From IMG/VR virus record IMGVR_UViG_3300028883_000070, positions 1 to 45,943 of that record: a stretch of 45,943 nt of DNA; one strand, 5' to 3'. The notes below the pieces were generated by a model. The model made no database searches and was not told the DNA's origin. It saw nothing but the letters and a program-made list of their open reading frames with translations. The stretch is from a virus. Positions 19,186 through 31,801 of the stretch are shown here, piece by piece (position 1 is the stretch's first letter; the number at the start of each line of letters is the position of its first letter). Both the position numbers and the translations under genes were made by a program.

Positions 19186-20496
19186 TTATTCGATCTCACC
19201 CGTGATACATTCAACGGCCTTATATGCCTGGTTCGCTGCTTTGATAATCAACCCGCGGTCATCATTCAAGGCTTTAAGCCAGCTGTCAATATAGGCGGCG
19301 GTCCGTTCAACTTCCCGCTTTCCCTCAAACCCTACCATATTCAGCAGCATAGCTGAACCCAACTCCGCGGTTAACTCTTCCCTTGCGTATCCAGGCGATC
19401 CAACCCCGTGATTTTCTGGATACTCACGATCAAGCCGCTTTTTATGTCCCGTGCTATGCGTCAATTCGTGGAATAGTGTCCCGAAATAACCCGCGTCCGT
19501 TTTGAATTGATCCATTTCCGGCATGTGTACGCTATCCGTTGACGGCCGGTAAAACGCCCGGTCTTGTTTATAATGCCTGATCTTTGGGGGGGCTTGCATT
19601 TTAGCTACAACGGCCCCGGCCGCGTCCGTTGCGCTTGCGTCCGTGGTTTTGATCTTGCTTTCAATCATTGGGGGGATCTCAATCCCGTCCGCTTGCTCCA
19701 AATTAAACACCGTGTAGTAACGCATAAGGGGAATGTTGACTTCCAGCGTTTCCCCTTTGTCATTCACCGCGCCGCTTTTATCCTTAACCCGTACGATATT
19801 AAAATAAGTGATCTGCGTCCCGTGTTCGCCTTTGCGCACGTGCCCACCCTTGTTCTTGATCTGCTTAAACGTTGCCCAATAGGGACATTCAAAACCTTTT
19901 TGTGTCGCATCCCACTGCAGCAGCCATTGATTAAACCCGCGGTAAGGCTTTTTACTGGCAAGATTCCTGTGAAAGCCGGGACCGTTCCAGGGACGATCCC
20001 AGGGCACCGTGCCCGATTCCAGCGCGTCAATAACCTGCTGTGTGACAATTTCAACGACCCGTTTTTTACTCTTTTTTGTTTTGGTTCCTGTGTTGGTACT
20101 CATTTCCTTTTCCTTTTCTGGTTTGGTTTGTGCCTGGTCCTGGTTCAGTTGATCCCGGCCGGCCTGATCCTGATCCTGTTTAATCTGCTTTTCCCGCGTG
20201 CGCATATCTGGCAGCCATGAATAAAACTCATATACCATTTTAGGGACCTCATTCATTATTCCATTGTCCCGGCAAAGATAAAAGTGATCCTTTGGCTGTT
20301 TGAGCTTTTTATATTCCAGGTTCACTTTCTTTTTAGCGTATATTTGTACGCTATGGTGCCGGCTGGTAAAGGTGCCTGTGTCAACCATTTTGCGAATAGT
20401 TGACAATTCGCGGCCGAAATAGCAAGGCTCATTTAAAATCTTATTAAGCCGTGCCTGGTTCATTACTTCAGTTCTGGTCCTGGTTTGGGTATTCAT
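19186..20496 (-). CDS. ArdC-like antirestriction protein with extra N-terminal domain (possible two-start gene)
   Basis: 436 residues. From residue 132 on, it is ArdC-like: an N-terminal single-strand DNA-binding-type domain (IVTQQVIDALESGTVPWDRP, YRGFNQWLL, YWATFKQ, GEHGTQITYF), then a zinc-metallopeptidase-like domain with HELTHSTGH (343-351) and a downstream Glu in AREELTAELG. ArdC proteins protect incoming DNA from restriction. Residues 1-131 are an unrelated, unrecognised domain. Residue 132 is Met with its own AAAAGGAAAAGG site (start at 20103) and a leader like those of neighbouring genes. A 305-residue ArdC alone may therefore also be made. Confidence 0.8.
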   Translation of the reverse strand: MNTQTRTRTEVMNQARLNKILNEPCYFGRELSTIRKMVDTGTFTSRHHSVQIYAKKKVNLEYKKLKQPKDHFYLCRDNGIMNEVPKMVYEFYSWLPDMRTREKQIKQDQDQAGRDQLNQDQAQTKPEKEKEMSTNTGTKTKKSKKRVVEIVTQQVIDALESGTVPWDRPWNGPGFHRNLASKKPYRGFNQWLLQWDATQKGFECPYWATFKQIKNKGGHVRKGEHGTQITYFNIVRVKDKSGAVNDKGETLEVNIPLMRYYTVFNLEQADGIEIPPMIESKIKTTDASATDAAGAVVAKMQAPPKIRHYKQDRAFYRPSTDSVHMPEMDQFKTDAGYFGTLFHELTHSTGHKKRLDREYPENHGVGSPGYAREELTAELGSAMLLNMVGFEGKREVERTAAYIDSWLKALNDDRGLIIKAANQAYKAVECITGEIE

Positions 20497-22911: not shown

Positions 22912-23670
22912 ATGAAAGTTATCAGTTTAGGATGGGGGGTACAGTCTTTCACACTGGCGGCGATGGTTGCGTTAGGAGAGCTAGAGCCGGTTGATTATGC
23001 GATACACGCAGACACAACGCATGAGAGTGTCTTAACCTATGCGTTTGCAGAGAAGTGGACGCCGTGGATGGAAGAGCGGGGGGTGAAGGTTGTAACGGTG
23101 CGAGTTGAAAGCGCAGATTTTCACAAGCAAGAAAAGTTAAAAGGATTGGGAACGCCGCCTTTGTTTACTAAAACTGACGATGAAAACGGGATGCTGAATA
23201 GATCATGCACACAACGGTGGAAAATTGCCCCAATGCGCAAGTGGTTGCAATCTAATAGGGGTGGTGAACAAGTAGAGCAGTGGATGGGTATTAGTTTGGA
23301 TGAGTTTCAGCGAATGAAACCATCCAACGTCAAATACATCAAGCACCGTTGGCCGCTGATTGAAAAGCGCATGAGCCGCCACGATTGCAAGGTATGGCTG
23401 GATAAACACAATATCGAGATCCCGCCGCGATCATCGTGTGTGTTTTGTCCGTTCCACAGCCGCAAGGAATGGCGCAACGTCAAGCAAATACCGCAGGATT
23501 GGAAGAAAGCGGTAGAGGTTGACGAGCAGATCAGGAAAGCGCGGCCGCCTTATGACTTGTATGTGTGCAATCAGCGTAAGCCGTTGCCAGAGTGCGACTT
23601 TGACAGCCCGCAGGATAAGGGGCAGCTTGAATTGTGGAACGAGGAATGTTCAGGGTATTGTGGGTTATAG
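22912..23670 (+). CDS. PAPS-reductase / DndC-like N-type ATP pyrophosphatase family protein
   Basis: 252 residues. The opening VISLGWGVQSF is a variant of the SGGKDS-type pyrophosphatase loop; HADTTHES, then CTQRWKIAPM and WMGISLDEFQR follow in the family order. C99, C159, C176 and C179 (the last two in CVFCPF) could bind an iron-sulfur cluster as in DndC-type enzymes. Phage relatives are called PAPS sulfotransferase or reductase. Sulfur or other modification of nucleic acids is possible. No other dnd genes are visible, so it does not form a complete phosphorothioation system. Confidence 0.75.
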   Translation: MKVISLGWGVQSFTLAAMVALGELEPVDYAIHADTTHESVLTYAFAEKWTPWMEERGVKVVTVRVESADFHKQEKLKGLGTPPLFTKTDDENGMLNRSCTQRWKIAPMRKWLQSNRGGEQVEQWMGISLDEFQRMKPSNVKYIKHRWPLIEKRMSRHDCKVWLDKHNIEIPPRSSCVFCPFHSRKEWRNVKQIPQDWKKAVEVDEQIRKARPPYDLYVCNQRKPLPECDFDSPQDKGQLELWNEECSGYCGL

Positions 23671-28859: not shown

Positions 28860-29552
28860 ATGGCGTATTATTACATTAAGCTGTACCATGAAATTCTGAA
28901 CGATTACAAAATGTGTACGCTTTCGGATACGCTTTGGCGCAGGGCTGTAGAGTTTTTTCTGCTTGCCGGTGAATACGGACAAAAAGGGATACTGCCCCCA
29001 TTGGATCAGATCTGTTTCGTGCTGCGCCAGGATGAAAAAGCGTTATCCGAACAAATAGATAAACTTATCGCTGTTCGTATTCTTTCCAGAACAGAGCAAG
29101 GAGTGTTGTACGTGACTAATTTCGAGAAAAGACAAGCCAAAGTGTCGGACGCGGAGCGCAAGAGAAGGCAGCGAGAACGTGACAGGAATCAAGCGGAAGG
29201 TGGTCACAAGGCTGTCACAGGTCGTGACGGTGAACGTGACACAGTTAAGTTAAAGTTAAATAAAGATAATAATACAGAGATAGATAGTATTATTGTCCGC
29301 TTGCGTTCTGTTTACGAGCAAAACATTGGGCCTATGGTTCCTATGGTGCTTGAAGAATTGCGCGTCATTGCAAGAACATATCCAGAATCCTGGTTTGAAG
29401 AAGCCGTGAAGATCGCCGTTGAAAAAGAAAGCCGCAATTTGGGATACATCAAAGGGATCCTGAAGAACTGGAAAGCCAACGGCCGCGGGGGGAAGGGTAA
29501 GAAGAAAGAAACCGATTGGGCGGAACAGGCCCGGAAATACGGGACAGAATGA
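28860..29552 (+). CDS. DnaD-like replication initiation protein
   Basis: 230 residues. The N-terminal 95 residues form a winged-helix-like domain (YYYIKLYHEILND, LPPLDQICFVLRQDEKAL, VRILSRTEQGVLYV). A basic linker (AERKRRQRERDRN) leads to a C-terminal DnaD domain with YPESWFEEAVKIAVEK and YIKGILKNW (196-204). DnaD-like proteins help open the origin and load helicase. The linker-coding DNA contains GTGAC repeats followed by an A/T-rich stretch, a likely replication origin. No helicase gene was recognised, so the host's is probably recruited. Confidence 0.8.
   Translation: MAYYYIKLYHEILNDYKMCTLSDTLWRRAVEFFLLAGEYGQKGILPPLDQICFVLRQDEKALSEQIDKLIAVRILSRTEQGVLYVTNFEKRQAKVSDAERKRRQRERDRNQAEGGHKAVTGRDGERDTVKLKLNKDNNTEIDSIIVRLRSVYEQNIGPMVPMVLEELRVIARTYPESWFEEAVKIAVEKESRNLGYIKGILKNWKANGRGGKGKKKETDWAEQARKYGTE
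29179..29273. other. Candidate replication origin (iteron-like repeats plus A/T-rich tract)
   Basis: Five GTGAC/GTCAC motifs occur in 65 bases: 29179, 29204, 29215, 29224 and 29236, in both orientations. Directly after them comes TTAAGTTAAAGTTAAATAAA and further A/T-rich DNA to 29273. Iterons within an initiator gene followed by an unwinding element resemble the lambda O arrangement. Confidence 0.5.
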
Positions 29553-30499
29553 ATTATCTTTCTTTGTTTTCCGGCGCAGGAGGCGGCGACCTTGCCGCAC
29601 AGCATTTTCATAGTTGGCGGTGCCTGGGATATGTGGAGTATGCGGATTACCCGCAGAGAGTGTTGAAAGCGAGGATACAGGATGGACACCTTAACGAAGC
29701 CCCAATTTTCGGCGATATCAGAACATTCATCAGTGAAGGGTACGCCGAGCGATATAGAGGCATGGTTGATGTCATTACCGCAGGCTTCCCCTGCCAGCCG
29801 TTCAGCGTTGCCGGAAAGCAAGCCGCAGTTGACGACCCACGAAACATGTGGCCTGCTACCATCGAGTGTATTCGCACGGTTAGACCCCGATACTGCCTGC
29901 TGGAAAACGTCCCAGGCCTGCTTGCCGCTTCTCATGGATACTTTGGAACGATACTCCGAGAGCTGGCCGAAAGCGGGTATTCTGCACGATGGCGTGTGTT
30001 ATCGGCGGCCGAATTGGGAGCGCCGCATAAACGAGATAGGCTTTGGATTGTGGCCTACTCCGACGGCAAGCGACAACGACAATCGGAGAACAAAACCAAC
30101 GCCAGCAGAGATAGAGGGGCGGCATGGATGGGGATTAATGAGTGCGATAGTGGACGCAAGTTCTTTGAAACCTGTGAAGAAATGGCCGACGCCAACGGTA
30201 GACGATGCGAACAACGTAACACGCCAGAGTGGAGCGTTTCAGAGCTTGACGAGGGCGGTGATGTTTCCAACACCACGGCAGCGGGACTGGAAAGGGCAGA
30301 GCCAGCGCGGGATACATGCGCCGATGGATGCGCTGCCAAATCAGGACAGAGGGGACGGGAAGCCGATTGGTGGTCAGTTGAACCCAACGTGGGTCGAGTG
30401 GCTCATGGGGTGGCCAATCGGGTGGACAGACTTAAAGCCATTGGAAACGGACAGGTTCCGCAAGTGGCAGCGAGAGCATGGGAATTGCTAACAGAGTAA
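29549..30499 (+). CDS. C5-cytosine DNA methyltransferase
   Basis: 316 residues, starting in an ATGA overlap with the DnaD-like gene. Motif I is LFSGAGGGD (residues 6-14), motif IV GFPCQPFS with catalytic Cys82, motif VI ENVPG (119-123), motif VIII HKRDRLW, and motifs IX-X RVDRLKAIGNGQVPQVA near the end. The region between VIII and IX (about 180-275), rich in Arg, Ser and Glu, is the target-recognition part. It probably protects phage DNA. Most of the gene is overlapped in the +1 frame by another long reading frame. Confidence 0.9.
   Translation: MNYLSLFSGAGGGDLAAQHFHSWRCLGYVEYADYPQRVLKARIQDGHLNEAPIFGDIRTFISEGYAERYRGMVDVITAGFPCQPFSVAGKQAAVDDPRNMWPATIECIRTVRPRYCLLENVPGLLAASHGYFGTILRELAESGYSARWRVLSAAELGAPHKRDRLWIVAYSDGKRQRQSENKTNASRDRGAAWMGINECDSGRKFFETCEEMADANGRRCEQRNTPEWSVSELDEGGDVSNTTAAGLERAEPARDTCADGCAAKSGQRGREADWWSVEPNVGRVAHGVANRVDRLKAIGNGQVPQVAARAWELLTE
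29682..30491 (+). CDS. Overlapping +1-frame protein inside the cytosine methyltransferase gene
   Basis: 269 residues, entirely inside the methyltransferase gene. The ATG has GAGGATA seven bases upstream. The product resembles a family often annotated as hypothetical in phages: LMSLPQASPASRSALPESKP, LLPSSVFARLDPDTACWKTS, YSESWPKAG, repeated WPTPT motifs, and NPTWVEWLMGWPIGWTD near the end. These positions code at the same time for methyltransferase motifs IV and IX. Function unknown. I call it from motif recognition and length; proof of translation is missing. Confidence 0.6.
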   Translation: MDTLTKPQFSAISEHSSVKGTPSDIEAWLMSLPQASPASRSALPESKPQLTTHETCGLLPSSVFARLDPDTACWKTSQACLPLLMDTLERYSESWPKAGILHDGVCYRRPNWERRINEIGFGLWPTPTASDNDNRRTKPTPAEIEGRHGWGLMSAIVDASSLKPVKKWPTPTVDDANNVTRQSGAFQSLTRAVMFPTPRQRDWKGQSQRGIHAPMDALPNQDRGDGKPIGGQLNPTWVEWLMGWPIGWTDLKPLETDRFRKWQREHGNC

Positions 30500-31193: not shown

Positions 31194-31214
31194 ATGAGTG
31201 AAAGGATGGAGTGA
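31194..31214 (+). CDS. Possible six-residue leader peptide
   Basis: ATG at 31194 after CACCGGAGGC encodes MSERME, and its TGA overlaps the methylase ATG (TGATG). It may couple or regulate translation of the methylase. Chance occurrence is possible. Confidence 0.3.
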   Translation: MSERME

Positions 31215-31801
31215 TGAAGGTATTAGTAGCATGTGAGTTTTCTGGAGTTGTTCGGGAAGCGTTCGCGGCGCGAGGGCATGACGCTTTGAGTTGCGACCTG
31301 TTGCCAACAGAGATACCAGGCAATCATTATCAGGGTGATGTGTTTGACCTGATAAATGATCCAGCGTATCAATTCGATTTGATGATAGCGCACCCGCCAT
31401 GTACAAGGCTCTGCAACTCTGGCGTATGTTGGCTTGCAAAAAGAAACTTGTGGGATGAAATGAGAGAAGGAGCAGAGTTTTTCAAAAAGCTGATGGATGC
31501 TGATATTCCAAAGATTGCAGTAGAAAACCCCATACCTCACCATTATGCCGTGGATATTATCGGGAGGAAATACGATCAGATTATACAGCCGTGGCAATTT
31601 GGACACGGAGAAACTAAGGCGACTTGTCTGTGGCTGAAGAACTTACCAAAACTTATTCCGACAAACATTGTAGATGGGCGAGAGCAGCGGCTTCATAGAG
31701 TCCCGCCTGGACCAGACAGATGGAAAATACGCAGCACAACGTATACAGGTATAGCCGAGGCAATGGCTGACCAGTGGGGTGATACATGCCCCGCCTCCTG
31801 A
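31214..31801 (+). CDS. Dcm-like cytosine methyltransferase-family protein (HPPC type)
   Basis: 195 residues from ATG 31214. LVACEFSGVVREAFAARGHD is the SAM-binding start; IAHPPCTRLCNSG occupies the catalytic loop, with HPPC in place of PPCQ; VENPIPHHY resembles ENP motif VI. This is a compact phage family usually called DNA cytosine methyltransferase or DNA methylase. Motifs IX-X are not obvious. Flanking perfect 51-bp repeats mark it as a recently inserted or duplicated cassette. Confidence 0.7.
   Translation: MKVLVACEFSGVVREAFAARGHDALSCDLLPTEIPGNHYQGDVFDLINDPAYQFDLMIAHPPCTRLCNSGVCWLAKRNLWDEMREGAEFFKKLMDADIPKIAVENPIPHHYAVDIIGRKYDQIIQPWQFGHGETKATCLWLKNLPKLIPTNIVDGREQRLHRVPPGPDRWKIRSTTYTGIAEAMADQWGDTCPAS

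Follow-up and report, generated by a model that had tools for sequence, protein, structure and literature searches.

The closest described systems to the locus presented here are the two-subunit methyltransferases M.EcoHK31I, with the specificity YGGCCR, and M.AquI, with the specificity CYCGRG. Lee, Kam and Shaw are said to have found in 1995 that M.EcoHK31I needs both of its proteins in vitro and that its alpha gene contains the beta gene, read in another frame. The beta polypeptide of M.EcoHK31I, at ~176 amino acids, is shorter than the one described below. As is generally known for C5 methyltransferases, the recognition region and motif IX stand between motifs VIII and X (PMC3404938). In M.EcoHK31I the larger polypeptide carries motifs I-VIII and X, with the recognition domain predicted in this large subunit, and the smaller one carries motif IX; M.AquI is split between motifs VIII and IX, its small subunit carrying part of the recognition region and motif IX (PMC3404938). 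Judging from its sequence, the phage locus very probably encodes a two-subunit C5 methyltransferase of the M.EcoHK31I kind (alpha with motifs I-VIII and X, beta with motif IX), the beta gene being nested in the alpha gene.

The locus lies in a virus record of 45943 bases (the window, meaning the whole stretch of DNA that was analysed), from a tailed phage that has genes for terminase and a major head protein. The initial annotation had reported an 810-base same-strand overlap in the +1 frame of a methyltransferase gene, and this overlap is confirmed: the nested ORF runs from ATG to TAA through 269 stop-free codons (Table 1). The alpha start is most likely the ATG at 29549, which overlaps the stop of an upstream DnaD-like gene, rather than a TTG at 29516. 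Elsewhere in the window are a second methyltransferase-like gene close downstream of the nested pair (31211-31801, + strand; phrog_757 'DNA methyltransferase', E 4e-64), a gene for a phosphoadenosine phosphosulfate reductase-like protein (22912-23670, + strand; phrog_424), and a gene for an ArdC-like anti-restriction protein with ArdcN and zincin-like metallopeptidase domains (19186-20496, - strand), which is consistent with host restriction pressure.

Table 1. Positions in the window of the two overlapping genes and their main features.
Feature	Position	Strand	Basis
Alpha subunit: C5 cytosine DNA methyltransferase, 316 aa, motifs I-VIII and X	29549..30499	+	PF00145, phrog_363, AlphaFold model, VIA-align
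Beta subunit: +1-frame protein, 269 aa, putative target-recognition region and motif IX	29682..30491	+	phrog_1008; frame conserved in >200 loci
Alpha motif IV GFPCQPFS, catalytic Cys within	29783..29806	+	sequence; PC invariant in 120 homologues
Alpha motif VIII KRDRLWIV, where the conserved catalytic half ends	30029..30052	+	sequence, homologue alignment
Alpha residues 171-273: unconserved, predicted disordered; coding signal is that of the beta frame (WPTPT repeats)	30059..30367	+	36 disjoint pairs; low pLDDT
Beta candidate motif IX, LNPTWVEWLMGWPIGWTD	30378..30431	+	>95% conserved at most positions; stands ahead of motif X in L173 (fused) and split homologues
Alpha WWSVEPNVGRVAHGVANRVDRLKAIGNGQVP, segment up to and through the motif X core; bases common with beta motif IX	30371..30460	+	both frames constrained

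Alpha is the catalytic half of a C5 methyltransferase without the small domain. It matches PF00145 over residues 1-183 (Pfam search, E 6e-38) and phrog_363 (PHROG profile search, E 3e-70) and has the catalytic-domain motifs I, IV (PC), VI (ENV) and VIII of PF00145, but the small domain with recognition region and motif IX, found in C5 methyltransferases in the same chain, is missing. Similarity to M.HhaI and M.HaeIII stops at residue ~172; across 120 homologues alpha is conserved at residues 1-170 and 275-315 (WW..EP.vGRVadGvA.RvDRlkAiGNGQVP), and no conserved position was found among them in residues 171-273. The AlphaFold model is confident at 1-172 and in a C-terminal helix (301-316) in the motif X region, with ~180-298 predicted disordered at low pLDDT, and the VIA-align match of alpha to M.HhaI extends from residue 12 to 320 yet comprises only 181 of 327 residues (Z 22.7, rmsd 2.1), consistent with a large domain lacking the small one. 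The view of the initial annotation that the methyltransferase has all Dcm motifs was thus wrong, and its statement that the last +1-frame motif is coded by the same bases as methyltransferase motif IX has to be turned round: alpha has no motif IX, and the +1 motif is itself the candidate for it. Since the methyltransferase frame lacks both motif IX and a folded recognition domain, beta is in all likelihood the half that this enzyme lacks and not a second, unrelated protein.

The openness of the +1 frame was assessed by holding the alpha protein fixed, permuting its codons and counting +1 stops. For the window gene alone this predicts 4.4 stops in the part of the +1 frame that encodes beta, which has none (P(0) = 0.0017). 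Antisense ORFs of 150-400 aa are frequent in the window, which makes ORF length alone weak evidence, and it was dropped; we consider the comparative evidence, not the single-gene P, to be decisive for beta as a real gene. In the 153 nested relatives the +1 frame holds 20 stops where 610 are expected from the alpha codons, and the +2 frame of the same genes, taken as a control, holds 1962 against 1736 expected. Over alpha residues 73-220, 120 dereplicated genes have no +1 stop at all (about 318 expected). The loci found with beta comprise 153 nested, 16 split with the same +1 relation and 1 fused, and in 175 of 180 such loci beta is read in the +1 frame relative to an alpha ORF. A second sample was collected with alpha residues 1-170 only, since a search based on beta is biased, and a beta match was present in the +1 frame in 80 of its 80 loci. 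The +1 frame is open and conserved in more than 200 loci, among which some metagenomic ones may hold indels from assembly, and several records from different searches overlap in content. On this comparison beta is a genuine, conserved gene, and the same two-frame arrangement seems to occur in hundreds of related viruses and prophages.

Both frames are conserved and under selection. This was assessed in 36 disjoint pairs of relatives, ignoring multiple-hit and codon-usage refinements, and the contrasts between regions of the same genes are large. Residues 1-97 of alpha behave as an ordinary single gene, with the third codon position changing at three times the rate of the first, an alpha dNN/dSN of ~0.12 and a beta dNN/dNS of ~0.62. 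In alpha 171-273 the pattern is inverted: the ratio of third- to first-position differences in alpha falls to 0.71 (95% interval 0.59-0.84), the fastest base being the first of the alpha codon and so the third of the beta codon, and alpha is nearly neutral (dNN/dSN 0.79) with beta under purifying selection (dNN/dNS 0.42). Both frames are constrained in alpha 274-305 (alpha dNN/dSN 0.21, beta dNN/dNS 0.14). The +1 BLOSUM score at alpha 281-290 was 6.02 against a null of 0.42 from codon permutation, a null that does not model relatedness and was exceeded in all regions, by the +2 control too; for this reason only the excess of +1 over +2 is informative, and the disjoint-pair test is preferred. 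The initial annotation had mentioned +1-frame partners in other phages and proposed a conserved dual-coding pair, to be checked by codon-level selection in homologues and abandoned if the +1 frame proved stop-ridden or neutral. Such partners are seen in many phages, the +1 frame is neither, and the depletion of stops together with purifying selection in that frame supports the pair.

How translation of beta begins is less uniform across the family. An AGGA is found upstream of ATG 29682, in keeping with the ribosome binding site claimed earlier, but no conserved Shine-Dalgarno site was found at the beta start in the family (11% observed versus 11% expected). Nor was a conserved beta start codon found, an ATG occupying this codon in 31% of homologues. 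From alpha residue 45 onward the +1 frame already has few stops, which is compatible with ATG 29682 in this phage.

A PHROG profile search with the 269-residue product, a protein search being among the checks suggested at the outset, matched phrog_1008 'DNA methyltransferase' (E 2.8e-30); searches of Pfam and NCBIfam found no match. The WPTPT repeats and the final motif noted before are all in beta (WPTPTASD, WPTPTVDD, FPTPRQRDWKG and LNPTWVEWLMGWPIGWTD). Its homologues conserve, in order, G..W..S..YD...SWKT...TWPRWG, the WPTPT repeats and LNPxWVEWLMGWPxGWTdLkPL, with 0 to 5 WPTP-like motifs each. The stretch LNPxWVEWLMGWPxGWT is a candidate motif IX by its position, conservation and resemblance, and its bases fall inside those coding WW..EP..GRV..GVA.RVDRLKAIGNGQVP of alpha. 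A direct profile match of beta or of the IX-X segment to motif IX in solved methyltransferases or in PF00145 was below significance, and profiles of beta, split beta and IX-X segments gave nothing significant against PDB, Pfam and NCBIfam beyond the alpha part of L173 (see below). The AlphaFold model of beta is poor (pLDDT 62, pTM 0.28) and does not confirm a small-domain fold; four rows from annotated records were left out of the beta fold alignment.

The position of beta within the enzyme is given by a fused homologue. L173, from an actinomycetal MAG, is one 730-aa ORF that reads alpha 1-170, beta 54-259 and alpha 256-310, with the WPTPT repeats and LNPDWVEWLMGWPVGWT in its beta part and GNGQVP in its C-terminal alpha part. 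Because this order is alpha 1-170, beta, motif X, beta is the segment between motifs VIII and X. A second full single-frame fusion of alpha and beta was not found in the search for fused homologues. In split homologues alpha ends at ~166-180, just past motif VIII, and the +1 ORF of many runs from the WVEWLMGWP motif into GNGQVP, so that the beta frame passes from IX into X. Wherever the gene is split or fused, IX and X stand in tandem, about 50 residues apart in compact cases. The phrog_116 profile covers alpha motifs I-VIII at its positions 208-422 and matches split beta-plus-X proteins at 424-499.

At the DNA level, the dual-coded motif stretch shows up in BLAST as short islands of 80-89% identity, which this phage shares with phages of Acinetobacter, Salmonella and Lacticaseibacillus and with E. 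coli prophages in an otherwise diverged gene. One prophage gene of the alpha family (L179:1866-2627, E. coli PCP07014) is annotated as a pseudogene with an internal stop, and it overlaps an 86% identical dual-coded motif island. In frame-swapped relatives (L232, L256 and L296, which have the same motif spacing; L320 and L324; L198) a single shift within the recognition region makes motifs IX and X trade ORFs, and in L232, L256 and L296 three frames hold motifs I-VIII, the beta N-terminus with X, and WPTPT with IX, respectively. These may be stable lineages or assembly indels.

Under the two-subunit reading, alpha would provide, in frame 0, motifs I-VIII for AdoMet binding and catalysis, followed by a disordered linker and the motif X helix. 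Beta, in frame +1, would be the DNA-binding small half, made up of the N-terminal element G..W..S..YD...SWKT...TWPRWG, the variable WPTPT recognition region and motif IX. The two would be translated separately and then assemble into the working methyltransferase, beta giving alpha target recognition and motif IX. For a phage equipped with an ArdC-like anti-restriction protein as well, the likely role would be to protect its DNA from host restriction by methylation.

Other explanations can be imagined. That the +1 frame is open and conserved merely through conservation of alpha and biased codon usage might be argued from the modest P of the single window gene and from the long spurious ORFs of the window. 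Such an artefact is hardly credible, since the beta frame is conserved, with its third position the fastest, precisely where alpha is not (171-273), and since the stop count in the nested relatives, the stop-free stretch at alpha 73-220 and the sample gathered with alpha alone all contradict it. If beta is real, it could still be a separate protein with another job, such as regulating or inhibiting host restriction or the methyltransferase, as the lack of a matching Pfam family or solved structure would allow. We regard this as very unlikely: beta is exactly what alpha lacks, it stands between VIII and X in L173, and the phrog_116 profile runs on past alpha into proteins of the beta type.

A programmed ribosomal frameshift after motif VIII would dispense with a separate beta by producing a single chain of motifs I-VIII, the recognition region and motif IX, and would agree with the +1 direction being constant across all nested loci and with the near neutrality of the alpha frame past motif VIII. 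This too seems improbable, because conserved beta residues 54-105, which overlap alpha 98-150, would be lost from the frameshift product, yet are kept behind motif VIII in L173. In addition, motif X is conserved in frame 0 and would be missing from the frameshifted chain unless a second shift occurred, and +1 stops are depleted well upstream, already from alpha 45. Two separately translated subunits of one methyltransferase remain the reading that we prefer.

To our knowledge, long same-strand overlaps in which both frames are selected have rarely been documented in prokaryotes. The present overlap has a clear reason, the two frames encoding two parts of one enzyme, and offers a large comparative set across many phyla; since fused and split relatives can serve as outgroups, the origin of the nested gene can be studied directly. 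Taken together, we see an even chance that these loci belong to a very widespread group of phage and prophage methyltransferases, each a single enzyme encoded by two frames of one piece of DNA, its recognition and catalytic halves dual-coded over ~200 or more codons and motifs IX and X drawn from the same bases, and that the fused, split, nested and frame-swapped relatives form a series showing how a long same-strand overlap comes about. Because alpha accepts nearly any sequence in the stretch of the repeats, the beta half may be able to evolve new target specificities there. Since gene callers keep one frame, many clones of phage and prophage 'DNA cytosine methyltransferase' (alpha frame, altered codons) would be inactive, and methylome assignments made from alpha alone would miss the specificity subunit.

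The pairs are already present in public records. Both members are called DNA methylase or methyltransferase, with the overlap unexplained, in mycobacteriophages Firecracker (gp6/gp5) and Vanisoa (gp80/gp79), whose +1 pairs overlap only partially, unlike the nested pair of the window, and in Paenibacillus phage Bloom (56/57) and Streptococcus phage P0091 (39/40), whose +1 pairs are nested as in the window. PHROGs likewise keeps alpha (phrog_363/phrog_116) and beta (phrog_1008) as separate families, both named 'DNA methyltransferase', the overlap not being noted. In Rhodococcus phage ReT1v-2 (L093) and Streptomyces phage Samy (L090), parts of the pair are annotated 'hypothetical protein' or the beta start is placed downstream of the beta match, since gene callers avoid overlap. 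A paper on the phage-wide nested pattern was not found in the open-access literature, and one may exist elsewhere.

The likeness of the window pair to M.EcoHK31I is one of motif layout. As in that enzyme, alpha has motifs I-VIII and X and not IX, and, as reported for it, the beta gene lies inside the alpha gene in the other frame; the smaller polypeptide would carry IX, as indicated by the order in fused L173 and in the split homologues, the direct profile match being non-significant. Unlike M.EcoHK31I, with recognition predicted in alpha, the signal here is in beta, alpha 171-273 being near neutral and beta under purifying selection. With M.AquI the window pair would share the break between VIII and IX and a small subunit with part of the recognition region and IX, but its motif X lies in alpha, unlike that of M.AquI, which is on beta with IX. 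The M.AquI layout, with IX and X on beta, is that of the split relatives L005, L006, L097, L153 and L160. By these motif comparisons, the locus very probably encodes a known kind of enzyme, and one that is far more widespread than the few described cases suggest.
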